Source: Actinoallomurus purpureus
Lineage (GTDB): Bacteria; Actinomycetota; Actinomycetes; Streptosporangiales; Streptosporangiaceae
Reading direction: 5' to 3'
Assembly: GCF_024055795.1 (NCBI RefSeq)
Contig: NZ_JAMXMY010000008.1
Location: 62,001-126,000 of the forward strand
DNA length: 64,000 bases
Position 1 is the stretch's first letter. The number at the start of each line of letters is the position of its first letter. Both the position numbers and the translations under genes were made by a program. The notes beneath the pieces were generated by a model. It was not told where the DNA came from, made no database searches, and saw nothing but the letters and a program-made list of their open reading frames with translations. Below, piece by piece: positions 10,834 to 33,967 of the stretch.

Positions 10834-12684
10834 TTGAGCCACTGGACACTCCCGGGTTATACGGAACTGCGTGAGCTCGGTTCGGGCGGTTTCGGACGAG
10901 TCGTGATGGCACGCCACGACGTGTCCGGGGGCATCGTGGCCATCAAGTACCTGTTCACCCAGCGGCTCGGCGGGGACGCCTTCCGTGCCTCATTCCGGGA
11001 CGAGGCCCGTCTCCTCGCGACGCTGGACAGTCCGTACATCACCCGGTTGTACGAGTACGCCGAGGAAGGCGACCACGCGGCGATCGTCATGGAGGCCGTC
11101 GACGGCGCATCCCTCCGCGCGGTGCTGGACGCGCACGGCCCGGCCGGGCCGGAGGCGGCTCTGGCCGTGCTCCGGGGCTCCCTGCTCGGGCTCGCCGCCG
11201 CGCACGCCGCCTCGGTCGTTCACCGCGACTACAAGCCCGCGAACGTCCTGGTAGGGCAGGACGGCCAGAGCAAGGTCGCCGACTTCGGCATCGCCGTGCG
11301 ATCGGGGGAGTCAGGCCCGGCCGCCGGCACGCCGTCGTACATGGCACCCGAGCAGTGGGAGGGCGCGCCGGCCGGTCCCGCGACCGATGTCTACGCGGCG
11401 GCGTGCGTCTTCTTCGAATGCGTCACCGGCCACCGACCGTACGACGGCGGAGATCAGGCGACCCTGCGGAGTGCGCACCTCACGGCACCGATTCCACTCG
11501 AAGAACTCCCCGAGCCGGTGCGGCCGCTGGTCGTGCGCGGGATGGCGAAGGATCCGGCCGATCGGCCGTCGGGAGCGCAGGCCTTCGTGGCCGAACTCGA
11601 GGAGGCCGCCAGAGCGGCATACGGGCCTGACTGGGAACGCAACGGCTGGAAGCGCCTTGCCGAGGCCGTCGCGGGACTGGCTGCGTTGGTGCCTTTCGCC
11701 CTTCTTCTCGGCACGACGCCGGGCGGGGCCGGAGCGGGCGGCGCCGGAGCGGGCGCCGCGGCGGGGGCGGGCGGCGGCGCCGGTGCGGGAACCGTCGGCG
11801 GGACGGGTGGAGCCATCGGCCGTACGGCGGGCAGAACACTGCGCGCCAAGGCCGGCGTCGGCGCGGCCGGCGCGATCGTCGTGGGCGTGGTCGGCACGGT
11901 CGCGATGCTGCATCAGGGCAAGGGCCATGAGAAGCCCACCGCGCCGGTGGCCGCGCGGAAGCCGTTCACGATCTCGTATGGCTCGCTGGACCGGACGTTC
12001 ACGCACCCGGCGCTCACCGTCGAAGGCAGGTATGTCCGCATCGGCGGATTGCGGGATCCAGCCGTCGAACAGGTGGTCAACCAGGCCCTGCGGCTGCCCC
12101 TCGATCAGCAGGTGAAGCGGTACGAGCACGCGCGCCAGGCGGGCAGTTCGGCTTCAGGCCACCCCCAGGTCACCACAGCGATCGACGTCAGGCTGCGCGG
12201 GCCTCGACTGCTGTCGGCCCGGTACCGGTTCATCCCTCACCAGGCGCCCCTCACCGCGTTCGACTGGGGAGGCACGCGGGCGGTCACCGTCGACCTGGCC
12301 ACCGGTCTGCGCCTGAGAGCTCGCGACATCCTCCGAGACGTCGCCTTCACCCGATCCGGCCTGAAGGATCTCGAACGTCGGATCGGCCGAGCAGCACCCG
12401 GCGGGGCGCTTTGCGGCGGGGAGCAGAAGATCAACTCGATGGTTCTCAGCCCCTCCACTATCGACACCGATGACAAGGAGAAGCGTGCGCTGGACCTGAT
12501 GCCGACGAAGGAGGGGATGGAGTTCGACGTCGTGCCGCCCTTGCTGGGCTACGTCTGGGCGTGCGCCGAGACCCTGGTCACGGTCCCGTACGACAGGATC
12601 TCCGACCTCGTCCGGCCGGAGATCCTCGCGCTCACCCGGACGTCGGCCGGGTCGGCCGCGTCGCCCTCACCAACGCCGTCATGA
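10834..12684 (+). CDS. Receptor-type Ser/Thr protein kinase with RsiV-like extracellular domain
   Basis: A 616-residue kinase with a complete lobe: glycine loop GSGGFG, ATP lysine K38 in VAIK, catalytic HRDYKPAN (D132), DFG at 150-152 and SYMAPEQ. A Gly/Ala low-complexity stretch and hydrophobic segments (about 285-300 and 345-365) follow. The outer domain of about 230 residues contains the pattern [17 protein letters not shown], resembling the DUF3298/RsiV-type sensor fold; it has no PASTA repeats. Start is TTG. The gene converges on the thiamine-binding-family gene and the two coding regions overlap by 6 nt. The ligand is unknown. Confidence 0.88.
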
Positions 12685-12978
12685 ATCCGCGGTCAGGTGC
12701 CGCTCGATGGTTTCGACTTTGCTCGTGAGTCCGTCGGCGACTCCCTCGCGGATGTCGGCCTTCAGGACGAGGCTGACCCTCGGGCTGCGGGCGGCGACCG
12801 CGTCAACCGCACGCTTCACGACGTCCATCACCTCGTCCCACTCGCCCTCCACACTCGTGAACATCGCGTCCGTGCGGTTGGGCAGCCCGCTCTCCCGGAC
12901 GACGCGCACCGCTTCGGCGACGTGCTGCCCCACTGACTCGCCGACGCCGAGAGGGGTGACCGAGAAAGCAACGATCAT
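12679..12978 (-). CDS. MTH1187/DUF77-family thiamine-binding protein
   Basis: A 99-residue ferredoxin-like protein of the MTH1187/YkoF-related DUF77 family. Members bind thiamine or related pyrimidines in the few cases studied. The typical [10 protein letters not shown] start and the later [14 protein letters not shown] strand are visible. It is the last gene of the secretion operon: its ATG overlaps the NUDIX stop (TGATG). Its 3' end overlaps the convergent kinase by 6 nt. The link to secretion may only be transcriptional. Confidence 0.85.
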
Positions 12979-13382
12979 CAAGACTCCTTCAGATGCTCGT
13001 GTACGGCTTCGACGACGGGTAGGTCGGCCGGCAACCACGGTACGTCGAACAGTTCGGCCCCGGTCAGCCAGCGCAGCGCGGAGTGCTCCCGGGCCTCCGG
13101 CTCGCCGCCCACGATCGTGGCCGTCCATACCCGCATCACCATTCCATTGTGGAGCGGGCAGTCCTGGCCGACACGGCCGCCGACCGACACGTCGATCCCC
13201 AGCTCTTCGCGGCATTCGCGGACGAGCGCGTCCTGTTCCGTCTCTCCGGCCTCGACCTTGCCACCGGGGAACTCCCAGCCGCCGGCCAGTTCGGGCGGCT
13301 CGGCGCGCTGCGCCGCCAGGAGCCGTCCCCTGTCGATGATCGCCGCCCCCACCACCAGAGGCGGTACCGGTCTGGTCTGCAC
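12978..13382 (-). CDS. NUDIX hydrolase, MutT-like
   Basis: Hydrolyses a nucleoside diphosphate linked to another group. The 134-residue size and Nudix box (GGKVEAGET...RECREELGI, with the REEL metal-binding glutamates) fit MutT-type 8-oxo-dGTP diphosphatases, but the substrate cannot be read from sequence. The start is GTG, directly abutting the stop of the peptidoglycan hydrolase gene. It therefore belongs to the same transcript as the type IV secretion genes. Confidence 0.88.
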
Positions 13383-14525
13383 TCAGCGCTTCTCCGTCGG
13401 ACCGTTGTGGCCGTTGTGGGCGGTCGGGCGGGTGAAGCCGACGGGACCGCCGTTGGGGAAGGTCTTGTAGTTCTGGTACTTGACGACGTCACCCGTGTGC
13501 GGGGCGACGATCATGATCCCCTTCTGCGGGTTGTACACGATACCCACATGCCCAGGACCCGAATGGCCGGGGAAGTAGTCGAAGTAGACGAGATCGCCGG
13601 GTTGCTCCTGCCCCTTCTTGATCTCCGCACCCCACCAGTATTGAACATCCGACGTGCGTGGGATGTTGACGCCGACGGTCTTGTAGGCCGCCATCGTCAG
13701 CCCGGAACAGTCGAAACTGCTAGGGCCTTCGGCGCCGAAGATATACGGCTTGCCGATCTGTGCTTTGGCGAAATTGATGACCTTCGCCGCGACCTCGTTC
13801 GGCGCGACGGGGGCCCCGTTCACGTCCGCGCACTTGGGTCCGCTGGCCTGAACAACGTCGAAGTTCCCTGAAGCGTACTTCTTCGCCCAGGAAAGCACGT
13901 TGTTGACGTAGGACACGAGGTGGTTGTAGGCGAAGATGGCGTCACGAATCCGATCCGGCGCGCCGCTGGCCTTCAGGTAGCGAGCGGCGGCGGGAATGGC
14001 GTCGGCCGGATCGTAGCGGTCTTTCTTGTTGTCGCCGTCGCCGTCCACCCCGTACGTGGCCCAGGTGCCGGGTATGAACTGCATCGGCCCGCCGGCGTGT
14101 GCGTAGTTCTCACCGCTGAGAACACCGGGCGCCTTCAGTTGACCATGATGGGTCTCGACGTACCCGACGCCCGCCAGGACGTTCCACGGGATCCCGTACT
14201 GCTGCCCCGCCTTCTTGTAGAGAGCGAGATAGTTGGACGGGATGCTGCTCGCGTCGCCGGACTGCTGCGGCTGGGACGCCGCCCCAGAGGTGTCCGTGCA
14301 GTTTCCGCCGCGACTGGCGTTCTGATAAAGGCTGTTCGCTCCGAAGAACAGAGGAATGGACACCAGACTCATGAAGAAAATCGCCGCGGCGCCTCCGGCG
14401 ATGATGATCGGCAGGCGGACCAGGCCTTGATCCGATCGCGTGAAATGCTGAAGAGAGATAATGCGACGGCGATCGTTCCGTCCCCCCAAGCCGACGCCGA
14501 GCCGCAGGTGCCGGCGAAGCTTCAT
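13383..14525 (-). CDS. Two-domain peptidoglycan hydrolase (SLT-like plus NlpC/P60), TcpG-like
   Basis: Opens the cell wall for the secretion channel. The 380-residue protein has a basic N-terminus, one transmembrane anchor (about 40-60), a lytic-transglycosylase-like domain ([10 protein letters not shown], then [16 protein letters not shown]), and a C-terminal NlpC/P60 endopeptidase domain with catalytic Cys in FDCSGL and His in GHVGI. The ATG was chosen because GGGAAAGAG precedes it; an upstream in-frame start would overlap the previous gene. It is the TcpG/VirB1 counterpart of the operon. Confidence 0.88.
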
Positions 14526-14535
14526 CTCTTTCCCT

Positions 14536-15162
14536 TCACTTGTCCCCCACATTGGCCGGCTGGAAGGCGTAGACGACCCAGCCTCCACCGGACCTCGTCA
14601 CCGTGACGGCGTACTGCTGGCTGGTGTCGCTGGAGCTTCCTCCCTTGCTGATGTGCTGAGTTCCGGTGACCAGGAAGATGAACTGGTCCTTCTCCATGTC
14701 ACGGAGGGAGTCCAGATGCGCGTCGGAGGTCGAGACCTCCTTGTCCTGCTTCCGCTGATCGAGGACACCCGGCGCCGACGAGTCGCGCTGCAACTGGGCC
14801 GCGAGATCAGTGGTCACCATGCCTTGCATCCGCCCGAGATAGGCGCTCGGCTGTTCGTCGTACCGGTAGGTGCCGTAGGCGATGGTGAAACGACGTGCCA
14901 CGTCCGCCGCCGCGCTGAAGTCCTTCTGCGTGAACGGCAGGAGTGAGTAGATGTCGTACGAACCCCCGCTCGGCGGAGGACCTGTCGTTCCGGGCGCGGT
15001 CGCCGACGGCACGGAGGGCGACGGGGAGGCCGCTTCACCGCGCTGAGCCGAACTCTTGTGTTTGCCGCTCCCCGTCCCGATGGTCAGGATGACCCCCGCC
15101 GCGGCGAGGAGCACCACCAGCGCGGCGAACAGGATCTTACGCTGGCGATCGGTCAGGTCCAT
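14536..15162 (-). CDS. Single-pass VirB8/TcpC-like assembly protein
   Basis: A 208-residue bitopic protein: short cytoplasmic N-terminus, one transmembrane helix (about 10-30), a Ser/Pro-rich spacer, then an outer domain of about 130 residues with a compact alpha/beta pattern. The last strand, GGWVVYAF, resembles the NTF2-like ends of VirB8 and mce-associated proteins. The ATG follows GAGGGG; a farther upstream start would overlap the VirB6-like gene. Position between VirB6-like and hydrolase genes supports a structural role. The assignment rests on topology and context. Confidence 0.65.
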   Translation of the reverse strand: MDLTDRQRKILFAALVVLLAAAGVILTIGTGSGKHKSSAQRGEAASPSPSVPSATAPGTTGPPPSGGSYDIYSLLPFTQKDFSAAADVARRFTIAYGTYRYDEQPSAYLGRMQGMVTTDLAAQLQRDSSAPGVLDQRKQDKEVSTSDAHLDSLRDMEKDQFIFLVTGTQHISKGGSSSDTSQQYAVTVTRSGGGWVVYAFQPANVGDK

Positions 15163-15169
15163 CGGCCCC

Positions 15170-17551
15170 TCATTGTTCCTCGCCGTCCTCACGCTTCACC
15201 GGCCGCAGCCAGAACGGCATCGACGGACCGTCTTCCCGCGACCGGCCCGACCACAGTGGCGGCGGCGCCTTGCCCTCGGAACGGACCTCCTCTTGCCGCT
15301 TGGCCGTGGACGCGGGGTCACGTCTCCCTCCCGACGCTCCTCCGCGCGCCGGGGGAGTCTGCGGCCGGCCGCCCGAGCCGCCAGAATCAGGTCGCGGAGT
15401 CGTACGACCGCCGGCCCCGCCGCCGAACCAGCTCCGGCCGCCCCCGGCACCGCCGCCCGTCGCCGCGCCGCCCTTGTCACCGCCGCCGACCGGGCCACGC
15501 CCTCCGTTCTCGCCCCCGCCTGCCGGCCTGCCCGGTGGCGTGCGGGTGCCGGAGCCCTGGCCCGCGCCGGTCTTTCCGGCAGCACCCCAACTCGGAGCGG
15601 TGGGCGCGGAGGGCGGACGCGTGCCGCTTCCGGCGGCACTCGGGCGACGTTCCTCGCGGGAGGAGGAATCGAGAGGCGGACGAGGAGCCGGCGGACGGGC
15701 CGTTACCGATCCGGACGGACGCGAGCCCCACAGGCCGCCGCCGTTCGCCCTCGCCGCAGGCGGCGCCGCCGCGGCCTGCGCGCGAGGGGAAAGATTCAGT
15801 GGCGGGGCACTGCCTCTCGCCGCACCGGCGGCCTTCGCCGCGAGTTGCGCGGCACGGCCGCGCCGGTCGGACGCGCCGACCACCTCGCGGCCGGCCGTGT
15901 CAAGGTCGGGCGACTCGTCACCCCTGAGGGTGGGGGCACCGGCCGGGTTCCCGGAGTCACGCTTGCCCCAGCGACCGAGCCGGTAACCGGCGGCCCCCGG
16001 GACGGCCGCGGTCGCGATCGCGGTGGTCCGCTTCCTCGTCTCCCGGATCGCCTCTTCGACCTGCTGTTCACCCTTGCGGGAGCCGACGGCCGAGTACCCG
16101 ACCGCGGCGAACAGGTGCTGGAACGGTTTCCGGTAGACGAATGCCGCGAGTGTGACCAGGGAGATGAGCAGGATCTGCAGGCCCCACGGCAGGCTCTCGG
16201 CCATGACCAACCCGTAGCACCACAGCAACAGCGCGAGCACGCCGATGAGGGCCGCCTGCTTCAGCAGAGTCGACAGGAGCAGCTCGAACCAGCGCACCGC
16301 GATGACCCGGCCGATGCCGGGATGGATACCGATGCCCAGGAAGATCGGCCCCGCGACGAGAAGGAGCAGAAACGAGATTTTCAAGATCACCAACATGACC
16401 GAGACGACCAGAACCAACAACCCGGCGACCAGCGCCGCGAGGAGGGCTCCGAATCCCACTGCGAGGCGCGACTGCCAGTCCTTCCCCTGGAAGAGGGAGT
16501 AGACCCCGGGGTAGTTATCCTTGATGTTCTTCGTGACACCTTTATAACTATCGGCCTTTTTGCCGAGATCCACCTTTTTTCCGCTGGTGGTCTCAGAAAG
16601 TTCCACGGCCTGAGAAGCCAGGAGTGTGGCCGCGTTCTCTTGGACGATCTTACTCTTCGGATCGTCGCTGCCGAACTCGCCCATCAACCACGGCTTGCAG
16701 ACAAGCGTCACCCAGAGTCCGTTGGCATTGCGGGTCACCGCGTCGTTCGACACCGGCTGTGGCGCTTTTCCGGCCGCCTTCGGCGGGATGCAGGCCGTGG
16801 AATTGGCGTCGCTCTGCGGAAGAGCAGCGTTGAAGGCCGCGGTCGCCCCGTTCGAGACCTTCGTTCCCAGCGTCGTGAAGTCACCGGGTCTGCCGATCAG
16901 CCAGATCAGTGCGACCATCGCCACGACCATCCAGATGGTGCCCTCCGCGACCCGGCTGGCCCGCCTGCGAATCAGCCCCCACCACGCCAGCCACAGAGCG
17001 CCGAGGATGACGACCCAGGACCAGTACTTGGCCCCGAACGTGTTGCCCATTCCCCGGATGACGCCGTCGACGGTCTTCTTCAGCCACCCGAGGAGGGACT
17101 CGGACGCCGCCGCCTGGTAGATCGTGATGGTCGTCCGGTCGATCGCCTGCGCGAACACGAAGACGGTGTTCGCGATGTTGTTCCCGATCATGGCCGGCAT
17201 GTCGGAGCAGCCCATGTCCACCGCGTGCCACGACTGACCGCGCGTTCCGTACCGGTCGTAGTACGTGAGCTGCTCGGGCGCGGCCTTCTTCATCTCCGTG
17301 CTCGGATAGTTCGGCGGTTTGACCATACCGTCGATTCCCGAACCGTACTGCTCCGGAGCCGGGTGGTCGGCGGGCGCGCAGGCGTCGTTCGGGTTCGAAC
17401 CCGGTGCCGTGGGAATGGGGTCGGCGCTGGCGATGCCCAGGGGACTCAGGACCAGCAGAGCCATGAGCATAAGAATGAGAAGCGACCGGCGCTTCCCCCG
17501 TGGTCTGCCGTTCGCCGCTGTTCGTCGTCGGCGGACGCCTGACACCCTCAT
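15170..17551 (-). CDS. VirB6/TrbL-like polytopic channel protein (TcpH-like)
   Basis: A 793-residue protein likely forming the inner-membrane channel of the secretion apparatus. It has a signal peptide (cleavage near SADP), a cysteine-containing external loop, a hydrophobic core with about seven transmembrane helices between roughly 165 and 480, and a basic Gly/Pro/Arg-rich cytoplasmic tail of over 250 residues. The start overlaps the VirB4 stop by 4 nt. Long disordered tails are common in Gram-positive VirB6-like proteins; its role here is not known. Confidence 0.82.
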   Translation of the reverse strand: MRVSGVRRRRTAANGRPRGKRRSLLILMLMALLVLSPLGIASADPIPTAPGSNPNDACAPADHPAPEQYGSGIDGMVKPPNYPSTEMKKAAPEQLTYYDRYGTRGQSWHAVDMGCSDMPAMIGNNIANTVFVFAQAIDRTTITIYQAAASESLLGWLKKTVDGVIRGMGNTFGAKYWSWVVILGALWLAWWGLIRRRASRVAEGTIWMVVAMVALIWLIGRPGDFTTLGTKVSNGATAAFNAALPQSDANSTACIPPKAAGKAPQPVSNDAVTRNANGLWVTLVCKPWLMGEFGSDDPKSKIVQENAATLLASQAVELSETTSGKKVDLGKKADSYKGVTKNIKDNYPGVYSLFQGKDWQSRLAVGFGALLAALVAGLLVLVVSVMLVILKISFLLLLVAGPIFLGIGIHPGIGRVIAVRWFELLLSTLLKQAALIGVLALLLWCYGLVMAESLPWGLQILLISLVTLAAFVYRKPFQHLFAAVGYSAVGSRKGEQQVEEAIRETRKRTTAIATAAVPGAAGYRLGRWGKRDSGNPAGAPTLRGDESPDLDTAGREVVGASDRRGRAAQLAAKAAGAARGSAPPLNLSPRAQAAAAPPAARANGGGLWGSRPSGSVTARPPAPRPPLDSSSREERRPSAAGSGTRPPSAPTAPSWGAAGKTGAGQGSGTRTPPGRPAGGGENGGRGPVGGGDKGGAATGGGAGGGRSWFGGGAGGRTTPRPDSGGSGGRPQTPPARGGASGGRRDPASTAKRQEEVRSEGKAPPPLWSGRSREDGPSMPFWLRPVKREDGEEQ

Positions 17552-20085
17552 CGGGGGACCTCCTGGGTGACCTCTGTAGCGGGGCCGCGGGGGGCGGTGG
17601 AGGGACGGGATGGTCGCTCGTTCCCACTATGCGCGCCCGAGGGCTCGTCCGCACTGATTTCGCCGGGCTTGGAGCGTGTCGGGTTGGTGTCGAGCCAGCG
17701 GAGCAGTTCCTCGGAGACCAGGTCGACGCCGATGCGGCCGGCCCGGCCGTCGAGGTCGCGGAAGATGCACTCGCCGTTGCCGAGGTTGCGCAGCACGGCG
17801 CGGTGCTCGTCGGAGTTCTCGACGCCGAGGAGGGCCATCACGTTGCCGACCTCGTTCCGCTCGGTCGAGCGGAACGAGTAGACGGACGACAGGCAGTTCG
17901 TCACCTGTTCGTTCAGGAGGTCGCCGGCGTTCTGCGAGACGAGGATCAGGGCGGTGTTTCGGGAGCGGCCCATCCGGGAGACCTCGGGGATCAGCTTGGC
18001 GCCCTCGGGTGTCTGGGTGATCGCCCAGGCCTCGTCGAGGAAGATCGCCTTCGGGAGGTGACGGTCGAGGCCGTGCATCAGGCGGCGGGCGAACTGCGAG
18101 ACGAGGTACATCAGGGCGACCGAGAGCCGTTGCTCGTAGGAGTAGTCCTCACGGTTGATGGCGACGTCCGGCAGGGTGAGGCCGCCGAGCGTGAAGACCG
18201 TGGTCCAGCCGGCCGTGTCGATCCGCTCGCCGCCGGAGGGGTCGAAGCACAGCCGCGCGAGACGCATCTCCGACATCGAGCGGAGCACCGCGCCGAGGTT
18301 CTTCGACGCCGGGTCGTCCGACGCGTCCAGGTAATCGACGACCTTGCCGAGCGAAGGCTGCGGCTGGTTGGCGACCGCGCCGACCGCCTGGATCATGGCG
18401 GACTCGCGCTCCTCGGACATGCGGGGCAGCAGCAGGCGGAGCGTCTCCGTGGCCATGGTCTTCTTGGCCGCGAGGTCGTCGCCGAAGCTGAAGGGGTCGA
18501 GGAGACCGGGGGCGGCCGACCCCAGCGGCAGGACGCGGGCGCGGCGCCCGCGTCGGCGCAGGAGGTCGACGAGGGACTCCGCGTCGCCCTTCGGGTCGAT
18601 CGCGGCGACCGTCACCCCGCGCAGCGACATCTGGTACAGCAGGAGCAGCGCCAGCGTGGTCTTCCCGCCGCCCGGCTCGCCGGTGATCGCGACGGCGGTG
18701 GGGCGGTTGCGGGCGGCGGCGACGAGGGGGTCGAAGTGCACGATGGAACGGGCACGGCCGAGGGTCTCCCCGATGTACGGCCCGACCCAGCCGGCGGAGG
18801 TGTCGTCCCGCCGGTCCCCCAGGTCGACCGTTGCGGTGGGCATGCCGCCCGCGATCGTCCGCAGCGGCTGGCGCTGGGCGTAGGCGTTGACGCGGATCCG
18901 GTCGCCGGGCAGCGATTCGCAGAACAGCGAGAACTGGTCACCGGTCGAGCAGACGATATCGATGCCGAGGTCGCGGTAGTGCTCGACGACCGCGTCGACG
19001 CGCTGTTGCAAGAGCTCCTCGGTCGGCGCCGAGACGATGAGCCGGTGCCAGCCGTACACGAAGGGCAGGCGCTCCTTCGTGATGCCGTGCTCGAGCATGC
19101 GGGCGGCGTCGATCTGCTCGGCCAGCGCGATGGGGGCCTCCGCCCCCGCCTCCCGGATGTGCTGGTCCATGTCCCGGGCATGCGCGAGCTTCCGGGAGAC
19201 GTCCTTGGACGCCTTCGCCGGTGGGACGAGCTTCATCCGCGCCGACACCTCCACCGGGAAGGGCAGGGCGTCGGCGAAGTGCATCCACGGCTCGCCGTCC
19301 GGGAACGGCATCAGGTCGGGGAAGCGCGCGAACGACAGGTACGCGACGTGGGACGAGCCGTCCGGCTGCTCCATGCGGAGGTTCGATCGGCCGTTGACGA
19401 TCGTGCCCTCCACGAGGCTCTCGATCTCGCCGGCTCCCCAGGTGCGGCGGGGCGTGGCCGAGGGCGGCGGGTCGGTCAGGGCGCCACTGGCCGCGTGCTG
19501 GAAGAGCCAGGCGATCTCGGTGGACGACGCGTGCCGGGCGTACAGGGCGCTGCCGCCGAGGGAACGGCCGAGCCGCTCGGCCTGTTCGGTCCAGCGCGCG
19601 ATCTCCTTTTCCGGGATCGCGTCGTCGTGCAGCCCGAGGACCTCCTCGCTCCGCTTGTAGAGCCCGAAGAGCTGCCTGAACGCCCCTCCGGACAGCTGGG
19701 CGCCCACGCCGCGCTGGCCGAGGCGCACGCCGAGGTAGACCTCCTTGGTCCAGAAGTCCTTCGACCAGACGTGGGCGTACATCTCCTCGAGGTACTCGCG
19801 CCAGCCGGGGCCTCCGTCGGAGGTCTCGTCGAGGGCGAGTGCCCATTCGGCCGCCGGATAGGTACGGTGCGCGATCCGCAGGTGGATCTCGGCGTCCTGC
19901 ATGCGGATGCCGGCCATCGCGATGGTGATGTTGGTGGCGAGCGCCTCGCGCTCTTCGTTCGTCGTGAACTCGTACGAGACGGTCGGCAGCCGGAAGTACG
20001 CCCAGGCGGCATTGTCGGTGAGGAGGATGCGATCGTCGAAATACCGTACGGCCAGCCGGCTGCGGGCCTTCGATGCCCTGCTCAT
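17548..20085 (-). CDS. VirB4/TraC-type secretion ATPase (TcpF-like)
   Basis: The energising ATPase of a type IV secretion system. The 845-residue protein has the N-terminal VirB4 domain and a C-terminal RecA-like motor with Walker A GEPGGGKTT, the following IDPKGD strand, and Walker B AIFLDEAWA. ILVSQNAGDLL provides the sensor region. No transmembrane helix is present. It starts 3 nt after the 59-residue gene and overlaps the VirB6-like gene. This is the most diagnostic gene of the locus. Confidence 0.93.
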   Translation of the reverse strand: MSRASKARSRLAVRYFDDRILLTDNAAWAYFRLPTVSYEFTTNEEREALATNITIAMAGIRMQDAEIHLRIAHRTYPAAEWALALDETSDGGPGWREYLEEMYAHVWSKDFWTKEVYLGVRLGQRGVGAQLSGGAFRQLFGLYKRSEEVLGLHDDAIPEKEIARWTEQAERLGRSLGGSALYARHASSTEIAWLFQHAASGALTDPPPSATPRRTWGAGEIESLVEGTIVNGRSNLRMEQPDGSSHVAYLSFARFPDLMPFPDGEPWMHFADALPFPVEVSARMKLVPPAKASKDVSRKLAHARDMDQHIREAGAEAPIALAEQIDAARMLEHGITKERLPFVYGWHRLIVSAPTEELLQQRVDAVVEHYRDLGIDIVCSTGDQFSLFCESLPGDRIRVNAYAQRQPLRTIAGGMPTATVDLGDRRDDTSAGWVGPYIGETLGRARSIVHFDPLVAAARNRPTAVAITGEPGGGKTTLALLLLYQMSLRGVTVAAIDPKGDAESLVDLLRRRGRRARVLPLGSAAPGLLDPFSFGDDLAAKKTMATETLRLLLPRMSEERESAMIQAVGAVANQPQPSLGKVVDYLDASDDPASKNLGAVLRSMSEMRLARLCFDPSGGERIDTAGWTTVFTLGGLTLPDVAINREDYSYEQRLSVALMYLVSQFARRLMHGLDRHLPKAIFLDEAWAITQTPEGAKLIPEVSRMGRSRNTALILVSQNAGDLLNEQVTNCLSSVYSFRSTERNEVGNVMALLGVENSDEHRAVLRNLGNGECIFRDLDGRAGRIGVDLVSEELLRWLDTNPTRSKPGEISADEPSGAHSGNERPSRPSTAPRGPATEVTQEVPR

Positions 20086-20088
20086 CGG

Positions 20089-20268
20089 TTACTCCTCGTC
20101 CTCACTGAACACGATCATGCGCTGCCCGGTCAGATTCCGCCGGAGGGGCCTCCGCCACGGGACGGCCGTCCCGTCGTCGCCGCCTTCTCCGGGCGTTCCT
20201 GCGGGAAGACCACTCGGCCGTTCGGTCCGCCGCCACGGGTGGGTGCCCGCCGGACGCTGCCGGCTCAT
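20089..20268 (-). CDS. 59-residue Trp/Arg-rich protein in the secretion operon
   Basis: A small gene filling the gap between the TcpE-ParA fusion and VirB4. Its ATG overlaps the stop of the upstream gene (ATGA) and its TAA lies 3 nt before the VirB4 ATG, so all three are translationally coupled. The product is basic, with HPWRRTER near the start and PWRRPL about 22 residues later. It ends RMIVFSEDEE, an acidic tail. It has no transmembrane helix or known motif. The tight coupling on both sides argues that it is real; function is unknown. Confidence 0.7.
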   Translation of the reverse strand: MSRQRPAGTHPWRRTERPSGLPAGTPGEGGDDGTAVPWRRPLRRNLTGQRMIVFSEDEE

Positions 20269-23200
20269 CGTGAGACCTCCTGCGGTGGATAGCGTCCCGG
20301 TGTCTGGACGAGACCGCCGGCGACGACGCCGCCGAGCGCGATGAACGCCTTCCGGGTGGGGGCGCGCAGCGAACGCAGCTCATTGCGGGGAGCGCGGTCG
20401 AGGCTGAGGTGGTCGTCCCAGGGGATGCGCACGAGGGCGCGGCAGCGGCCTCTGGCGACGGACTCGGCCTGCTCGACATCGTCCATGCTGCGGCGGCTCA
20501 CGCCGTTGATGACGGTGACGGCCCTGGCCCGCAGATCCTCGTACCCATGGCCGTCGAGCCATTCGAAGGTCATGGCCACCGCCCGCGGCGCGTCGGAACT
20601 GGCGGGGGCGACCAGCACGATCTGGTCGGCGTACGGCAGCACCCGAGCGACCACGGCGGCCGCCGCGTCGAGCAGCGTGATCGAGTAGAACCGGTCGAGC
20701 GTCCGCATCGCGAGGGCGTAGTCACGGTCGTCGAGGGCCTGGACGGGGTTCTTGCCGGCCGCAACGACCTCCAGCCCCGACTTGGAGGTGGAGGTGTACC
20801 GGCGCATCATCTGGTAGCCGGTGACCTGCTCGGCATGGGTGATCAGCGAGGTCAGCGTCTCCCTGGTCTCGGTCCGGGTGCGCCGGGCCATGGCACCCGG
20901 ACCCGGGTTCACGTCGACCGCGACGATCCGGTCACCGCGGTGCTGGGCGAAGGTGTGACCGAGCATGAGCGCGGTGACCGTCTGCCCGGCGCCGCCGGTG
21001 CAACCGAGCACGACGACGCGTCGGGCGCCCGCGAAGGCGGTCCGGACGCGCTCTTCGTAGTCGCCGTCACCGTTGCCGCCGCCCGAGAACATCCGCCTGC
21101 GACCACGGCCGTCGTCGCCGCGTGCCTCTTCATCGTGGCCGACCTGGGGGATCGGCCCGGGACGCACCGGTGAGGCGGGGCCGGAACGAACGGCGCGGGC
21201 GGGTGACTCCGGCGGCGCACCGGCGGCGTCCTGCCGGCCCGGCCAGTGCGGCTCCACGCCCGGCCGCGACGGGGCCGAGGGCGGGGTCGGCCGGGCCGCC
21301 GGAACCTGCGCGGGCCTCGCCGGCTGCGTCCGCGGTGGCTGGGCAGGTGCCTGAGGCGAGGCCGCCCTCGGTGGTGTGGCCTGAGGCGACGGGTGCCCGG
21401 CGGCGGGGGCCCGCGGGGGTACGGGCGGCGTCGCCGGCCGGGCCGGGGCGGATGGTGTCCATCCCGGGGCCGGAGACTGCGGCTCGCGGGCGGCCGGCGG
21501 CCGCGCTTCGCGCGAAGGCGCGCCCTCCTCGCCGTGCGACCGGCCTCGGGAGGGCGCCGCGGGCCCGCTCGGCCGACCGGGAGCGGTGCCGCGCGGTGTC
21601 GCGGCGCCGGCGTCCGGTCGCGACGCCGGTGTGCGCCGCGACCGGGCCGGCCACACGATCTGGTCCGTGCGGGCCTCGGCGACGGCCTGGTCGTCGTCGC
21701 TCAGCGCCGCCGCGCCGCCATCCGAGGCCGAACCGCCGTCCGACACCGCGCCGCGATCCGGCGCCGCGCCACGGTCCGCCGTCCTGCCGGGATCCACCGC
21801 CTCGGCCGGCCGGTGCGCCGCAGGGCGTGCCGGATCGTCGCTCCCGGCCGGTGGCTCGGCGGAACGGGGAGCCACCGGGTCGTCACCGGGCTTGGCGTGC
21901 CGCCCGTGCGGCAGTGGGATCACCGATGCGGGGAGCCCGCCCTCATCAGCCTGTTCCGGACCTGCCGGCCGGTCCGTCCCGGCAGGCGGGCCCGGCCGAT
22001 CGGCCTCAGCGGGCCGAGCGGGCCGGCCGAGCGCCGGGGGCTGAACGAGCGTGGGGCCGCCCGGCCGCCGGGTGTCCATGCCGCCAGGAGCGGGTGTGGG
22101 TACGGGTGAGGCGTCGGGGTGTGCCGGGGGGGTCGGCGGAGCCGCGTGCCTGCCGGCGAGGCCTGCCCCTGTCGGCCTGGTCGGGACGTCGGCGCGGGCT
22201 GGGGCATCCGGGCGGGCGGACGCTTCCGGTCGCGCGGGGGCTTCCGGTCGCGCCGGGACGACCGGGCCGCCGGGCTTCGCCGCGGGCGGCACCGGCTGCC
22301 GCCCCGGCGTGGACGGGGTGGGCGCCGCCGCCGTCGGCCGGGCACTGGCGGCGGGAGCCTCGGGCTCGTGAGAGATGTTGCGTTGTCGCGTCACACGGCG
22401 CGGCACGTCGGCCTCCCGCCCCGGGCCCTGAGGGCCGGCGTCGGGCCGGTTCTCCACGGGCTGTCCGCGATCGGCTCCGCGCCTGTCCGCCGTGTCGCTC
22501 TCGGCGGACGCCGGGCCGGTGGCGTGGGCGGCGGGGAGCGCGGGCCTCGCCTGCGGGCCCGGCCTCGTGGGAGTGCCGGGCGAGGCAGGTGTGCCCGAGG
22601 TCCCCGGGGTGCTGGGCGAGGCGGGAAGGCCGGGCGAGGCGGGAAGGCCAGGCACGGCCTGGGGCGCCGTCGGCTGTGGGCGGGCCGGCCGGGCGGAGGT
22701 CGGTCGTGCGGAGGGCTCGGACCGCACCGGCTGGGGACGGGTCGGCTCGACCCGGCCGGGCGTGAGGCGTCGTCCGGCGGAGGCGGCCGGCGGCGCCACC
22801 GTGGTGCCGTCATGGGGGGTCGGCTGAAGGCTCGGCGCCTGCGGGCGCTGTGCGGCGGCGGGGCGGCGGGGAGTGCCGCGGGACGCCTGGCCCGCGCCGC
22901 TGTGTTCCAGGACAGGCGGCACGGTCGCGACCGGTACCGCCGCCCGTTCCAGGGCGGGCGTCTGCTCGGCCGGCTCGGCGACGGGCCGCGCGGCATGCAC
23001 GCGGCGGCCTGCCAGATGGCCTCGACGCCACACCCGGCCGACGACGACGACCTCACCCGGCTCGCGGATCGGCGTCAGCCGTGCCCAGGTGCGCGCCTCG
23101 GTGAGGTAGCGGACCTGGGACATCAGCAGCTCGGTGAGGCGTTTGCCCTCGATGACGGGGCGGGTGGCCAGCCAGGTGAGAACTCCGGGCGGGACGAGGT

Positions 23201-23384
23201 AGACGACGTGCCAGGGCGCGTGGAACGGCAGGCCGACCACCTGGAGCAGGACGATCCAGGGCAGGAAGACACCGACGAACACACCGATCTGCACCAACGG
23301 CAGCGGCATCGGCAGGCGCAGGTCGTAGAGCTTGTACAGCCGCTTCTCAATGCGCCAGATGTTGGTGTACGTAGGCAGATCCAC
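20265..23384 (-). CDS. TcpE-like membrane domain fused to a degenerate ParA/MinD-like domain
   Basis: A 1039-residue three-part protein. Residues 1-115 match TcpE-type conjugation proteins: a YTNIWRIEKRLYKLYDLRLP start and two transmembrane helices. About 620 residues of Pro/Ala-rich disorder follow. The C-terminal 270 residues are a ParA/MinD-like fold (VVVLGCTGGAGQT, then VAVDVNPGPG), but the Walker A lysine is replaced by glutamine and the ParA signature lysine is missing. ATP hydrolysis is therefore doubtful. Start is GTG. The fusion may tether a partner-binding domain to the secretion pore. Confidence 0.8.
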   Translation of the reverse strand: MDLPTYTNIWRIEKRLYKLYDLRLPMPLPLVQIGVFVGVFLPWIVLLQVVGLPFHAPWHVVYLVPPGVLTWLATRPVIEGKRLTELLMSQVRYLTEARTWARLTPIREPGEVVVVGRVWRRGHLAGRRVHAARPVAEPAEQTPALERAAVPVATVPPVLEHSGAGQASRGTPRRPAAAQRPQAPSLQPTPHDGTTVAPPAASAGRRLTPGRVEPTRPQPVRSEPSARPTSARPARPQPTAPQAVPGLPASPGLPASPSTPGTSGTPASPGTPTRPGPQARPALPAAHATGPASAESDTADRRGADRGQPVENRPDAGPQGPGREADVPRRVTRQRNISHEPEAPAASARPTAAAPTPSTPGRQPVPPAAKPGGPVVPARPEAPARPEASARPDAPARADVPTRPTGAGLAGRHAAPPTPPAHPDASPVPTPAPGGMDTRRPGGPTLVQPPALGRPARPAEADRPGPPAGTDRPAGPEQADEGGLPASVIPLPHGRHAKPGDDPVAPRSAEPPAGSDDPARPAAHRPAEAVDPGRTADRGAAPDRGAVSDGGSASDGGAAALSDDDQAVAEARTDQIVWPARSRRTPASRPDAGAATPRGTAPGRPSGPAAPSRGRSHGEEGAPSREARPPAAREPQSPAPGWTPSAPARPATPPVPPRAPAAGHPSPQATPPRAASPQAPAQPPRTQPARPAQVPAARPTPPSAPSRPGVEPHWPGRQDAAGAPPESPARAVRSGPASPVRPGPIPQVGHDEEARGDDGRGRRRMFSGGGNGDGDYEERVRTAFAGARRVVVLGCTGGAGQTVTALMLGHTFAQHRGDRIVAVDVNPGPGAMARRTRTETRETLTSLITHAEQVTGYQMMRRYTSTSKSGLEVVAAGKNPVQALDDRDYALAMRTLDRFYSITLLDAAAAVVARVLPYADQIVLVAPASSDAPRAVAMTFEWLDGHGYEDLRARAVTVINGVSRRSMDDVEQAESVARGRCRALVRIPWDDHLSLDRAPRNELRSLRAPTRKAFIALGGVVAGGLVQTPGRYPPQEVSR

Positions 23385-23445
23385 CCGGGCCCCACTCCCC
23401 TAATTGAGACCAGCCATGACTAGACCAGCATGACACCGGCTTTGT

Positions 23446-23730
23446 TCAGGATGTTTTGATTCCAAGAGCGGTCGCAATCGCCTTGGCCGTCGTCTCGATG
23501 ATGTTGGGGACGTAAAATATGACTCCGATCCCGATCGCGAGGAGAATGAATTGCACGAATCGCGTGATCTCCCTCGTGAAGAGGAAGAAAATCGCGACGA
23601 TGGAGACGACGACCAGGAACAACGGCCCGAATATGTCGCGCAACCACTTAGCGAGATTGCCGGTGTCGAGGCCATTGTTGGGCACCGCGTCCACATGATG
23701 CGGCAGGATCGCCAACACGTGTTGGATCAT
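23446..23730 (-). CDS. TcpD/VirB2-like small membrane protein
   Basis: A 94-residue protein with two hydrophobic helices (about 33-51 and 58-76) separated by a short TREITR loop and ending in a small helical tail. Size, topology and position between TcpC and TcpE match TcpD; a VirB2-like pilin is an alternative, though no signal peptide is obvious. The ATG follows GGAAGGCC. Gaps of 61 nt flank it on both sides, the largest within the operon. Confidence 0.7.
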   Translation of the reverse strand: MIQHVLAILPHHVDAVPNNGLDTGNLAKWLRDIFGPLFLVVVSIVAIFFLFTREITRFVQFILLAIGIGVIFYVPNIIETTAKAIATALGIKTS

Positions 23731-23791
23731 CGGCCTGGCCTTCCTTGGTCGGGGAGTGAATCGTAGCGTTCGGGACGGGCCGGCCGTGACC

Positions 23792-24802
23792 TCATGATCC
23801 GGCCGGAATCATGGAACCTTGAATGTCCCTGACGAACCAATATCCGCCTTTCTTGACCATGGCGAGCTGATAGGTCTGCTCGAGTGTGCCACCCGACGTC
23901 TTGGACTGACCAGCGGGAATCTGCCAGACGACCGTCGCGGTGACGGTCCGGGACGCGGCGTCACCCCGCGGGGCGATCATCTCTTTCAGCTGACCCAACG
24001 TGACGCTGTTGCCCAGCCCGGTGACGGGCGGGTCGGAGTATCGCTGGAGCGAGCCGGCATCGCTGGCGGCATAGGCCTTGAAGAAGTCGGTCAGCGGTTG
24101 CTGGAGTTCGGTCTCCAGCGCGGAATCGCGGTCCTGGGCGACCGGGGGAACTGACGCCGTGGCCGGCGGCGGGAGCATCGCGGGACGCCCGGTTATCGCC
24201 ATCGCCCCGTCCTTGGCGTACACGGGCACGGCCAGTTGGAAGAGCCGCCCGTTGGCCCGCGCGAGAAGGGTGACGATGCCGTGCACGGCGTCGTCGGAAC
24301 GCACGGAGGCGACATGCGCGGACTGCAAAACCGATTTACCGGTGCCGCCCCATCCGAGCTGCGGGTCGATGCCCCCGGCGATGAACTGGGCGAGCTGCCT
24401 CTGCCGATCCACCGCCGTCGCCTGGTCGTAATTCAGATAGACCTCGGCGAATGACAGGGCGTACGCCGAGGCCGCCGCCTCAGGGAACCGCGGTTTGGTC
24501 GAGTCGCTGGCCGCCGGCGTGTTGGACCGGCCCGCGGTGAACCGCTCGAAGGGTGCCCGGACGCCGTTGACCAGCACGACGATGAGGAAGGCCCAGAGGA
24601 TGATCCGGCCGACGTAGATGAGCCAGCGGCCACCGGAACCGCCCCAGCCGCGACGGTCGCCACCACCATCGCCGGAGCCGCCACGGCGCCTGCCGCGGCG
24701 CCCCTTCTCGTCCGGAGTGTCCCAAGGGTCCGCGGGCGAGAATCCGCCCGGCGGGTAACCGGACGCACCGGCGTCTACAACGCCGGACGACCTGCGAGCC
24801 AT
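23792..24802 (-). CDS. TcpC-family conjugation/secretion protein (VirB8-like)
   Basis: First gene of the operon. The 336-residue protein has a basic Gly/Arg-rich cytoplasmic N-terminus, one transmembrane helix (about 60-82), and two tandem NTF2-like domains outside (about 105-215 and 225-330). Each contains the expected helix-rich start and terminal beta sheet (GGYWFVRDIQG). This is the domain plan of TcpC, which assembles the secretion complex in Clostridium perfringens pCW3. The ATG follows GCGGAGGCAAG. Confidence 0.87.
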   Translation of the reverse strand: MARRSSGVVDAGASGYPPGGFSPADPWDTPDEKGRRGRRRGGSGDGGGDRRGWGGSGGRWLIYVGRIILWAFLIVVLVNGVRAPFERFTAGRSNTPAASDSTKPRFPEAAASAYALSFAEVYLNYDQATAVDRQRQLAQFIAGGIDPQLGWGGTGKSVLQSAHVASVRSDDAVHGIVTLLARANGRLFQLAVPVYAKDGAMAITGRPAMLPPPATASVPPVAQDRDSALETELQQPLTDFFKAYAASDAGSLQRYSDPPVTGLGNSVTLGQLKEMIAPRGDAASRTVTATVVWQIPAGQSKTSGGTLEQTYQLAMVKKGGYWFVRDIQGSMIPAGS

Positions 24803-24992
24803 CTTGCCTCCGCTCGCGCCTTCCCCCCGGATCGGCGCGCCGTCTTATCCGTCTGGTCGAGTTCGGTTTACCACCTTAACCACGGCGGTCAATTGTTCCA
24901 GTGTCGAGCGAGGATGCACAGTCCCGCCGCGCGGTTGTGGACAACTCGGTAGCCGGTGGAGCATTACCGGACAGCGAGGTTCGTCTCCCCTG
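24803..24992 (-). promoter_or_regulatory. Upstream region of the secretion operon
   Basis: No gene. On the minus strand a TTGACC hexamer lies at 24884-24889 and the partly symmetric segment GGTTAAGGTGGTAAACC covers about 24865-24881. Either could be part of the operon promoter or operator, but no -10 stands out. The ychF gene ends at the other edge. Confidence 0.3.
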
Positions 24993-26072
24993 CTACACGT
25001 TGAAGCGGAACTCGACCACGTCACCGTCCTGCATGACGTACTCTTTGCCCTCCATCCGGGCCTTTCCGGCCGCACGGGCGGCGGCGACCGAGCCCTCGGC
25101 CACCAGGTCCTCGTAGGACACGATCTCGGCCTTGATGAAGCCCTTCTGGAAGTCGGTGTGGATCACGCCGGCGGCCTCCGGGGCGGTGGCGCCCTTGCGG
25201 ATGGTCCAGGCGCGGGCCTCCTTGGGGCCGGCGGTGAGGAACGTCTGCAGCCCCAGCGTGTCGAAACCGACGCGGACCAGCTGCAGCAGGCCGGGCTCCT
25301 CCTGCCCGGTGGACCGCAGGAGCTCCAGCGCCTCCTCGTCGGGCAGCTCGATGAGCTCCGACTCGATCTTGGCGTCGAGGAAGATGGCCTCGGCCGGGGC
25401 GACCAGCTCCTGCAGGCGGGCGCGCAGCGCCTCGTCGCCGAGCTCGTCCTCGTCGACGTTGAAGGCGTACAGGAACGGCTTGGCGGTCAGCAGGTGCAGC
25501 TCACGCAGCGGCACCGGGTCGATGCCGGAGGCGTAGACCGTGGTGCCGTCGTTGAGCGTCTTCTGCGCCACCTGGGCCGCCTCGACGACCGCGAGCTTGT
25601 CGCGGTCCTTCGTCGTCCGCGCCTCCTTCTCGAGGCGCGGCAGGGCCTTCTCCAGCGTCTGCAGGTCCGCCAGGATCAGCTCGGTATTGATCGTCTCGAT
25701 GTCGCGCAGCGGGGCGACGTCGCCGTCGACATGGGTGACATCCGGATCGTCGAACACCCGGATGACCTGGCAGATCGCGTCGGTCTCCCGGATGTTGGCG
25801 AGGAACTGGTTGCCGAGTCCCTGCCCCTCGGACGCGCCCTTCACGATGCCCGCGATGTCGACGAACTGCATGGTCGCGTGCACGATCTTGGCCGAGTCGT
25901 ACAGCTTGGCCAGCTCGTCGAGACGGGCGTCGGGCACTGCCACGACACCGACGTTCGGCTCGATCGTCGCGAACGGGTAGTTCGCCGCGAGAGCGGTGTT
26001 CTTGGTCAGGGCGTTGAACAGGGTCGACTTGCCCACGTTGGGCAGTCCGACGATTCCGATGGACAGGCTCAC
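24993..26072 (-). CDS. ychF: Redox-regulated ATPase/GTPase YchF (Obg-like)
   Basis: An OBG-family P-loop protein that in characterised members prefers ATP and associates with the ribosome. The 359 residues have G1 GLPNVGKST, G3 DIAG, the relaxed G4 NVDE, and a C-terminal TGS domain (GPKEARAWTIRKG to VVEFRFNV). Length is typical. It neighbours the DUF6542-ispH block, as in other Actinobacteria including M. tuberculosis. Confidence 0.97.
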   Translation of the reverse strand: MSLSIGIVGLPNVGKSTLFNALTKNTALAANYPFATIEPNVGVVAVPDARLDELAKLYDSAKIVHATMQFVDIAGIVKGASEGQGLGNQFLANIRETDAICQVIRVFDDPDVTHVDGDVAPLRDIETINTELILADLQTLEKALPRLEKEARTTKDRDKLAVVEAAQVAQKTLNDGTTVYASGIDPVPLRELHLLTAKPFLYAFNVDEDELGDEALRARLQELVAPAEAIFLDAKIESELIELPDEEALELLRSTGQEEPGLLQLVRVGFDTLGLQTFLTAGPKEARAWTIRKGATAPEAAGVIHTDFQKGFIKAEIVSYEDLVAEGSVAAARAAGKARMEGKEYVMQDGDVVEFRFNV

Positions 26073-33181: not shown

Positions 33182-33967
33182 TTGACCCAGCCTCCGCCGT
33201 ACCCGCAGCAGCCCTCCCCCGGCCCCTACGGCGGGCAGCCCTACCAAGGCGGCCCCCAGGACCACCCTCAGCCCTACCCCGGCCCGCAGTACCCCCAGCA
33301 GCCGTATCAGGGGCAGCAGGGACAACCCCCCGCGCAGGGGGGCTACCAGCAGGCGTACCCCGCCGGGCAGGGGCACCAGGGGCCGTACCCGGCGGGCCAG
33401 GGCTACCAGCAGGCCTATCAGGGCCAGGCCGCCGCGTACCCGGGCCAGCCGAACGCCTACCAGGCTCAGCCGCAGGCATATCAGGGGCAGCCGCAGGCCT
33501 ACCAGGGGCAGCATGCCGGGTACCAGCAGGCTCCGGCCGGCCACCCGGCACCGATGGGGGGCCCGTACGCCGGTGATGGTCTGGCCTGCCGGGTCTGCGC
33601 CGCCACGCCCGCGGTGAAGGCCACGTTCCGCGGGGTCGTAGGCGCGATCGTCATGCACACCATCTGGACGGCCACCGGACCGTTCTGCCGCGACTGCGGT
33701 CAGGCGACGTTCCGCAAGCAGACCGCGAGGACGCTCGCCGGCGGCTGGTGCAGCATCGGCGCGCTGGTGCTGGCCCCGTTCTTCCTGCTGTTCAACGTCA
33801 TCGCCCGCGGCAAGGTCGTGAACCTGCCCGCGCCGCAGCGCGCCGCCGGCGGCCCGGCGCCCCTGGAGCCCGGCAAGCCGGTGTTCCAGCGGCCGACCGC
33901 CTACGTCTATCCGGTGATCTTCTTCCTGTTCTGCATGCTCCTGCTCATCGGCATCCTGGCCCGCTGA
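33182..33967 (+). CDS. Tyr/Gln/Pro/Gly-repeat protein with zinc-ribbon-like and membrane segments
   Basis: A 261-residue protein of unknown function. The first 130 residues are low-complexity repeats built on AYQGQ and QPYQG units. Then come CRVC and CRDC pairs about 30 residues apart, a likely zinc ribbon, followed by a hydrophobic helix (about 195-213). A second helix ends at the C-terminus. The start is TTG after AAGGACCTCCG. It sits between xseA and xseB on the same strand, so the two nuclease subunits are not adjacent. Its repeats resemble the tail of the DUF4282 protein near 4.4 kb. Confidence 0.72.
   Translation: MTQPPPYPQQPSPGPYGGQPYQGGPQDHPQPYPGPQYPQQPYQGQQGQPPAQGGYQQAYPAGQGHQGPYPAGQGYQQAYQGQAAAYPGQPNAYQAQPQAYQGQPQAYQGQHAGYQQAPAGHPAPMGGPYAGDGLACRVCAATPAVKATFRGVVGAIVMHTIWTATGPFCRDCGQATFRKQTARTLAGGWCSIGALVLAPFFLLFNVIARGKVVNLPAPQRAAGGPAPLEPGKPVFQRPTAYVYPVIFFLFCMLLLIGILAR

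Follow-up and report, generated by a model that had tools for sequence, protein, structure and literature searches.

A chromosomal type IV secretion operon with a TcpE-MinD fusion in Actinoallomurus and its family

What does a type IV secretion system (T4SS) do on a chromosome when the coupling protein and relaxase of a conjugation system are not found beside it? The question is raised by a window of 64,000 nucleotides from Actinoallomurus purpureus (positions 62001-126000 of contig NZ_JAMXMY010000008.1, contig C51 of a 9.25-Mb genome in 52 contigs), in which a preliminary description had recognized a Tcp/VirB-type locus at 12679..24802. We find that window positions 13383-24802, on the minus strand, form a single operon with the full inner set of a monoderm T4SS, which sequence comparisons place in the vertically inherited core chromosome of one family, and that its TcpE protein continues into a ParA/MinD-like domain that has lost both Walker A lysines. 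The operon most likely does an ordinary cellular job, because almost every family member checked still carries it, and protein is plausibly its likeliest cargo. We give about an even chance to a more specific reading, that this is a domesticated, relaxase-free monoderm T4SS (MPF-FA/Tcp type) that exports or assembles protein without a dedicated VirD4.

Components of the operon

Profile searches for VirB4, TcpC, TcpE and VirB6 all gave matches above the Pfam cut-off and confirm that the T4SS locus is real (the Pfam scan of window proteins covered genes from 4308 to 29324). The interval first proposed was slightly too long: its T4SS part is 13383-24802, and the remainder holds a NUDIX gene and a gene for an MTH1187 thiamine-binding protein. 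From the upstream region to the last gene, the features are as follows.

24803..24992, minus strand: ychF-tcpC intergenic region with the conserved block CTGGAACAATTGACCGCCGTGGTTAAGGTGGTAAA, identical in the four aligned Actinoallomurus sequences; region and block are probably the operon promoter, a predicted role
23792..24802, minus strand: TcpC, a VirB8-like bitopic protein, first gene of the operon (PF12642, 79 bits, 4.5e-22, above cut-off; one transmembrane segment)
23446..23730, minus strand: 94-aa protein with two transmembrane segments at the TcpD position, TcpD-like or VirB2-like (frame indicated by third-codon-position GC; kept in relatives)
20265..23384, minus strand: 1039-aa protein made of TcpE (VirB3-like, about aa 1-115), a Pro/Ala-rich linker and a degenerate ParA/MinD domain (PF12648, 88 bits, 5.4e-25)
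17548..20085, minus strand: VirB4/TcpF ATPase (AAA_10/VirB4 PF12846, 219 bits, 1.7e-64; NF052333, 1.3e-72, below its curated cut-off)
15170..17551, minus strand: VirB6/TrbL (TcpH-type) polytopic protein (PF04610, 36 bits, 1.1e-8; NF046089, 9.6e-17, below cut-off)
14536..15192, minus strand: VirB8-fold protein of 218 aa, one transmembrane helix and an NTF2-like domain (AlphaFold model and Foldseek)
13383..14588, minus strand: SLT transglycosylase-NlpC/P60 peptidase wall hydrolase, VirB1-like (PF00877, 3.8e-19, 69 bits; PF13406 SLT_2, 1.4e-12, 48 bits; PF01464, 4.5e-8)

The inner set thus comprises VirB1-, VirB3-, VirB4- and VirB6-type proteins, two VirB8-type proteins and the 94-aa protein. The ATPase retains intact Walker A (GEPGGGKT) and Walker B (FLDE) motifs, invariant across a six-sequence alignment, and hydropathy gives the VirB6/TrbL protein about five transmembrane segments. 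The second gene had been placed at 23400-23696; the conserved 94-aa frame listed above replaces that call, and the sole Pfam match of its product, LptF_LptG, falls below the cut-off. No Pfam family matched the 218-aa protein. Its AlphaFold (AF2) model (predicted local distance difference test score, pLDDT, 83.6) has PrgL (7aed, E 3.8e-5) as top Foldseek match, followed by a Rickettsia VirB8-like protein, CagV, an IcmL-like protein, DotI, TraM and TraH, and profile matches were obtained to OmamC (9r33, E 9e-6) and to 3ub1 (E 0.07), a structure that we take to be TcpC. With VirB8 domains ranking first, the original VirB8-like call holds, and the protein is VirB8-like by its modelled fold.

The third gene had been assigned correctly to the TcpE family, and its C-terminal domain was overlooked. 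After the TcpE part come a 655-aa linker (22% Pro, 19% Ala; local GC up to 81%) and, at aa 771-1039, a domain that takes the ParA/MinD fold in the best of five models, with best Foldseek matches that include a ParA-family ATPase, Soj, MinD and Fe-protein-like members of the same superfamily. The ParA/MinD Walker A consensus is KGGxGKT; the host domain reads TGGAGQT. Both Walker A lysines are lost in all 115 chromosomal MinD domains compared (some of these loci being two fetches of one genome), with Q and T, A or S in their place. The deviant Walker A lysines of a VirC1-type ParA/MinD positioner are therefore missing from the chromosomal copies and kept in both plasmid proteins described below. 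Of the 85 loci with both TcpE and MinD, 79 encode them in a single unbroken frame. Against three Actinoallomurus, the ratio of nonsynonymous to synonymous substitution rates (dN/dS) of the MinD domain is 0.038, 0.052 and 0.054, and such strong purifying selection on a lysine-less domain implies that a ParA/MinD fold without its lysines does something useful. MinD is a real partner of this type of T4SS, since a separate MinD gene is also present in the plasmid T4SS clusters.

Distribution, synteny and selection

VirB4 was sought in two genome surveys, a first one of 49 same-family genomes with other families of the order and a class draw of 45 same-family and 348 non-family genomes; up to 12 candidates per genome were scored in the first and up to two in the second, and extra weak copies may escape these limits. 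VirB4 is present at 75% identity or more in 48 of the 49 genomes, host included (the lone genome without a match, G042, is 74% complete), and in 45/45 of the class draw. With the host excluded, identities in the family are 75-98%, the upper value belonging to the nearest named relative found, Actinoallomurus spadix. The single genome examined from a neighbouring family (G049) also reaches at least 75%, and three genomes of a third family in the order have no VirB4 at that level. Weaker matches came from 74 of the 348 non-family genomes, short stretches reaching 47% identity, and in none of the 348 did a match exceed 32% over most of the protein. The earlier suggestion of a conserved actinobacterial apparatus is thus borne out only in part: the operon belongs to the core of a single family, that of Actinoallomurus, Actinomadura, Nonomuraea, Streptosporangium and related genera, with the one neighbouring-family genome besides, and is not general among actinobacteria.

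Named genomes gave VirB4 relatives in 240 stretches, and the best 80, of which 45 are at least 22 kb long, were fetched; among these 80 are Actinoallomurus, Actinomadura, Thermomonospora, Actinocorallia, Nonomuraea, Streptosporangium, Microbispora, Planobispora and others. All eight gene hits are colinear and on one strand in 44 of the 45 longer loci, which excludes a chance arrangement, and the housekeeping neighbours noted at the outset recur there (ychF in 40/45, typA in 25/45). Restriction to one strain, which would have told against a conserved apparatus, did not occur. The same order and neighbours extend across genera, and an integrative and conjugative element or strain-specific island is rejected on this distribution and synteny. 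Over 50 loci, pairwise VirB4 identity follows that of YchF (Mantel rho 0.83, 0/1000 shuffles as high; median identity 84% for VirB4 and 82% for YchF), and the other operon components follow it at rho 0.78-0.86. Selection on VirB4 (dN/dS 0.034-0.068 against three Actinoallomurus) compares with 0.053-0.082 for TypA.

The immediate neighbours are these.

24993..26072, minus strand: ychF, conserved upstream neighbour (PF06071)
12978..13382, minus strand: NUDIX protein, downstream, often syntenic, outside the apparatus (PF00293)
about 12679-12972: MTH1187 thiamine-binding protein, after the NUDIX gene

Past the thiamine-binding gene lie a convergent Ser/Thr kinase gene and typA, and the upstream side holds ychF, rmuC, a DUF6542 gene and a LytB/IspH-family gene. 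The adjoining kinase was considered as a component of the locus and dropped for its inconsistent presence (no match there in family genome G006). A PHROGs profile search gave nothing useful. At window 33574-33666 ARAGORN calls a 93-nt tRNA-Ala(CGC) that lies within the called open reading frame 33182-33967 and is probably a false positive.

Several loci elsewhere deserve mention. The T4SS cluster of group g73, which we guess to be Nocardiopsis-like, is interrupted by additional genes; at L115, L116, L117, L121, L122 and L131 the extra genes, a Ser/Thr kinase gene included, follow virB4. The 11.85-Mb Nonomuraea gerenzanensis record NZ_LT559118.1 (L111), filed as a plasmid in PLSDB, is probably a chromosome, since it carries the operon, ychF and rmuC. 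Further chromosomal T4SS loci occur in families f38 and f47 of the class, next to a folP-like gene in three genomes of the former (L093, L094, L095) and to an RNase H-like gene in two of the latter (L102, L103), both neighbours being named by eye; these loci have stand-alone TcpE-like genes and, among the matches listed, no linked VirD4, and they may represent repeated T4SS domestication in actinomycetes.

Coupling proteins, plasmid relatives and cassettes

A linked coupling ATPase (TcpA or VirD4), as in a conjugative pCW3-like system, was not found in the host genome with the profiles tried. The T4SS-DNA_transf profile had no match in the genome, nor did the TrwC (MobF relaxase) profile, other relaxase families and the origin of transfer (oriT) lying outside this search; none of the 22 FtsK_SpoIIIE matches in the genome is on contig C51. 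The lack of TcpA/VirD4 and relaxase noted originally thus extends to the whole contig for the profiles tried (for relaxases, TrwC/MobF only). The single TraG-D_C match in the genome falls on contig C9, and another VirB4 gene lies about 13 kb from it. This second T4SS-like region of the host (G000:C9:163000-200000; L057, L058) combines a VirB4 of 24% identity with the VirD4-like gene that bears the TraG-D_C match. In the family, TraG-D_C matches 10/15 genomes and TrwC 2/15; five of these 15 lack a match to either VirD4 profile, and all five keep the operon. T4SSs without a type IV coupling protein (T4CP) are known, namely Ptl (PMC3297438) and that of Brucella (PMC12102498), according to the available text of these sources.

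Plasmid relatives with VirD4 and MobF had been overlooked, and the earlier interpretation as a whole is partly supported. On the Nocardiopsis plasmids NZ_CP099838 and NZ_CP080600, VirB4 is 74% and 70% identical to that of the operon, and TcpC, TcpE, a VirB6-type protein, an SLT-type hydrolase, a small transmembrane protein and a MinD protein are shared with it. The plasmid genes are laid out as a TcpC-TcpE-VirB4 block and a divergent block with SLT, VirB6-type, MinD and small transmembrane proteins. Unlike the operon, both plasmids carry VirD4 and a MobF relaxase, and their MinD is a separate gene with the motif KGGVGKT. A third plasmid record, H4, resembles the second plasmid in match and size. 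As available passages of PMC10241942 and PMC3297438 state, VirC1 positions the substrate in Agrobacterium, and by analogy the plasmid MinD may do the same. Quick trees put the plasmid VirB4s at the unresolved base of the family clade, and neither a plasmid-to-chromosome direction nor its reverse is settled by them.

Five family genomes, namely A. spadix (G005), G006, G013, G028 and G030, carry a VirD4 gene adjoined in every case by an M48 peptidase-like gene; the VirD4s are 52-85% identical, and the three M48 proteins put to the Pfam model (G005, G006, G028) match it. Plasmid VirD4s were tried as members of this family and failed, at only 24-28% identity. The cassettes are rare, with 2/45 family genomes of the class draw positive at 50% identity or more. 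In A. spadix, where VirD4 lies just past typA, the cassette proteins have no match in the window and no VirD4 relative is found there; the window genes in that place look sdhA/sdhB-like by eye, and Pfam assigns a DUF4282 protein and a kinase and has no match for a 410-aa protein.

The cassettes of A. spadix (L214 5452-11513) and G006 (L218 7885-13781) consist of M48, VirD4, a protein of about 160-185 aa that may be an adaptor or immunity protein, a protein of 431 and 387 aa respectively, one of 138 and 137 aa, and a zinc-ribbon-like transmembrane protein. The 387-aa protein of G006 matches 8VX3 (E 1.4e-19), and the 431-aa protein of A. spadix is 60% identical to it over 242 aa. In the available text of PMC12691689, 8VX3 is an exported alarmone synthetase from Streptomyces albidoflavus, and a T4SS is already proposed there for one such protein, whose group lacks signal peptides. 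In each of the two homologues the C-terminus is long and rich in acidic residues (57 acidic versus 14 basic of 211 residues; 50 versus 10 of 167). The G013 cassette has a TrwC relaxase beside it: at L220 3246-9724 (contig C29, 39 kb) a MobF relaxase gene adjoins the M48-VirD4 pair. No VirB4 besides that of the chromosomal core was found in this genome, and the pair and relaxase are possibly a mobilizable element that borrows it. The searches made in A. spadix, G013 and G028 returned no VirB4 besides the core one, and if the cassette VirD4s work, the core apparatus would be their obvious partner.

Interpretation and comparison with known systems

In the mechanism that we propose, VirB6 and TcpE would form a channel driven by VirB4, with TcpC and the VirB8-fold protein to hold it; the SLT-NlpC/P60 enzyme would open the wall. 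The MinD domain, tethered to TcpE, would act as a non-cycling anchor that places or holds the complex. In the plasmid form the separate MinD with its intact motif is presumably a VirC1-like substrate positioner; on the chromosome there would be no relaxosome to position, and MinD would have become fused and lysine-less. The basic function without VirD4 would be export or assembly of protein across the thick wall of mycelial cells, and some strains may additionally plug in VirD4 cassettes.

Several observations weigh against this picture. Neither substrate nor phenotype is known for the operon. VirD4 (T4SS-DNA_transf) is found somewhere in 16/40 family genomes searched, and with 22 FtsK matches in the host genome an unlinked FtsK-like motor may exist. 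A linked coupling gene, which the preliminary description regarded as telling against its proposal, was not found on the host contig but does occur in two relatives, at a distance from virB4 of about 12 kb (A. spadix) and about 9 kb (G028), and a T4CP may serve the operon in some strains. As for the fusion, 6/85 loci have stops or a frame change in the repetitive linker stretch, so the single frame is not universal; the MinD-domain fold comes from the best of five models, the other four having mean pLDDT of 49-59; and the putative loss of ATPase activity is read from the motif. Finally, the 94-aa protein tracks YchF less well than the other components do (rho 0.62).

The main rivals of this reading are cassette docking and a role in development. 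In the first, which we estimate as rather unlikely, the operon would be a shared conduit. Each accessory cassette would supply its VirD4 and its cargo, which would be an alarmone synthetase for export in some and a MobF relaxase in others. The five M48-VirD4 pairs, two of them within about 12 kb of virB4, would fit such a role, as would the acidic-tailed synthetase homologues in the A. spadix and G006 cassettes, the TrwC gene beside that of G013 and the lone core VirB4 of three cassette genomes. The cassettes are nevertheless too rare to explain a near-universal core; the host has none, a further VirB4-like gene is present in G030 and a weak one in G006, and the VirD4s of the sister plasmids are far from those of the cassettes. 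A bolder form of the idea, in which the operon is a universal chromosomal export dock, the dead MinD on TcpE is a landing platform, and interchangeable M48-VirD4 cassettes use it to mobilise DNA or to send toxic alarmone synthetases to nearby cells, strikes us as unlikely; if true, it would constitute a Gram-positive inter-bacterial plug-in T4SS.

We consider it decidedly unlikely that the operon encodes a wall- or chromosome-associated sporulation machine, by analogy the functional counterpart of Streptomyces cmdABCDEF. Deletion of cmdA-F impairs sporulation, septation and chromosome segregation and does not significantly change transfer of an SLP2-derived plasmid (PMC2782261, available text); among the genomes sampled the systems seem to exclude one another, and group f20 (taken for Streptomyces) has no near-full-length VirB4 match above 31% in the class draw. 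Against this stand a different architecture, with a short CmdB and a VirD4-like CmdA, an identity of about 23%, and the want of any phenotype for the window type. It is very improbable that the operon still conjugates, using an FtsK/TcpA-type motor encoded elsewhere and a relaxase or oriT that escaped recognition. Component set and order equal those of the Tcp and Bacillus plasmid systems, and a single FtsK-like protein can suffice in actinomycetes (PMC3218068, in the text available), but the profiles tried found no FtsK, VirD4 or MobF on the contig, inheritance is vertical, and the MinD lysines are lost in every chromosomal copy seen. That the operon is a decaying integrated element is scarcely credible: MobF and VirD4 were not found and a related set with both is on the Nocardiopsis plasmids, yet near-universal presence, intact genes, conserved neighbours and dN/dS down to 0.034 refute decay by distribution and selection.

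What emerges is a relaxase-free T4SS of monoderm type, fixed in one family, in which TcpE is fused to a pseudo-MinD. According to the available text of a 2025 review (PMC12857230), nearly all known functions of Gram-positive T4SSs are DNA translocation, effector export is a long-standing question, and the sole effector exporter cited is the 89K system of Streptococcus suis. An apparatus kept family-wide without DNA parts offers a way to learn what a monoderm T4SS does beyond conjugation; the plasmid/chromosome pair (separate intact MinD, VirD4 and relaxase on one side, fused lysine-less MinD and none of these on the other) allows a comparison across domestication, and the alarmone-synthetase cassette offers a concrete candidate substrate. 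We found no description of this operon among the literature matches listed, and nothing on VirB4 in Nonomuraea or on type IV secretion in Actinoallomurus, subscription papers lying mostly outside the reach of these searches.

Of the chromosomal systems compared, cmdABCDEF of S. coelicolor (SCO4126-4131), described in the available text of PMC2782261, is likewise a chromosomal T4SS-like operon, and we regard it as an analogue, not an orthologue. CmdB, of 475 aa, is preceded by a 519-aa gene, a pair that we read from sequence as a putative split VirB4; CmdA is VirD4-like, and the operon differs. The 15 family genomes searched for CmdB gave nothing close (best 30%), and orthology was rejected on this, on the architecture and on the identity. 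We located cmd in 17 of the 41 genomes of group g61, taken for Streptomyces on that basis, with a primer-derived pattern at up to three mismatches. Two cmdB mutagenesis primer pairs appear swapped in the methods text available from PMC2782261, the pair named for K404 encoding Walker A near residue 90 (by eye against L089). In a Streptomyces-like genome (G151:C1:4357531-4368849) the chromosome encodes a VirB4 relative at about 30%, and about 7.5 kb separate it from a VirD4-like gene, unlike the window type.

The T4SS of Patescibacteria is also chromosomal and monoderm, with relaxase usually absent and VirD4 mostly unlinked; it differs in phylum, in its FATA class and in its pilin arrays, and a TcpE-MinD fusion is not mentioned in the available text of PMC12102498. 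MOBless T4SSs resemble the operon in having no relaxase and are often thought to secrete protein, and the survey, in the text available (PMC3158045), reports few T4SSs in actinobacteria. The 89K system is Gram-positive and said to secrete a protein (PMC12857230, available text), but it lies on a pathogenicity island with VirD4, and no such gene is linked to the operon.

The closest likeness in order is to plasmid systems. The B. licheniformis plasmid NZ_CP035190 has the same order, judged by annotation and position only, with an extra upstream DUF87 ATPase and replication-relaxation protein, as annotated. The order recognized at the outset as that of pCW3 is confirmed, with TcpC, a small protein, TcpE, VirB4 (TcpF), VirB6, a VirB8-type protein and a wall hydrolase in the same sequence; a VirB4 with intact Walker A and B motifs, TcpC and TcpE beside it, and VirB6-like, VirB8-like and hydrolase genes assign the operon to MPF-FA/Tcp. 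It differs from pCW3 Tcp in that no linked coupling protein or MobF relaxase was found, in carrying a MinD fusion on TcpE, and in being chromosomal and family-wide.

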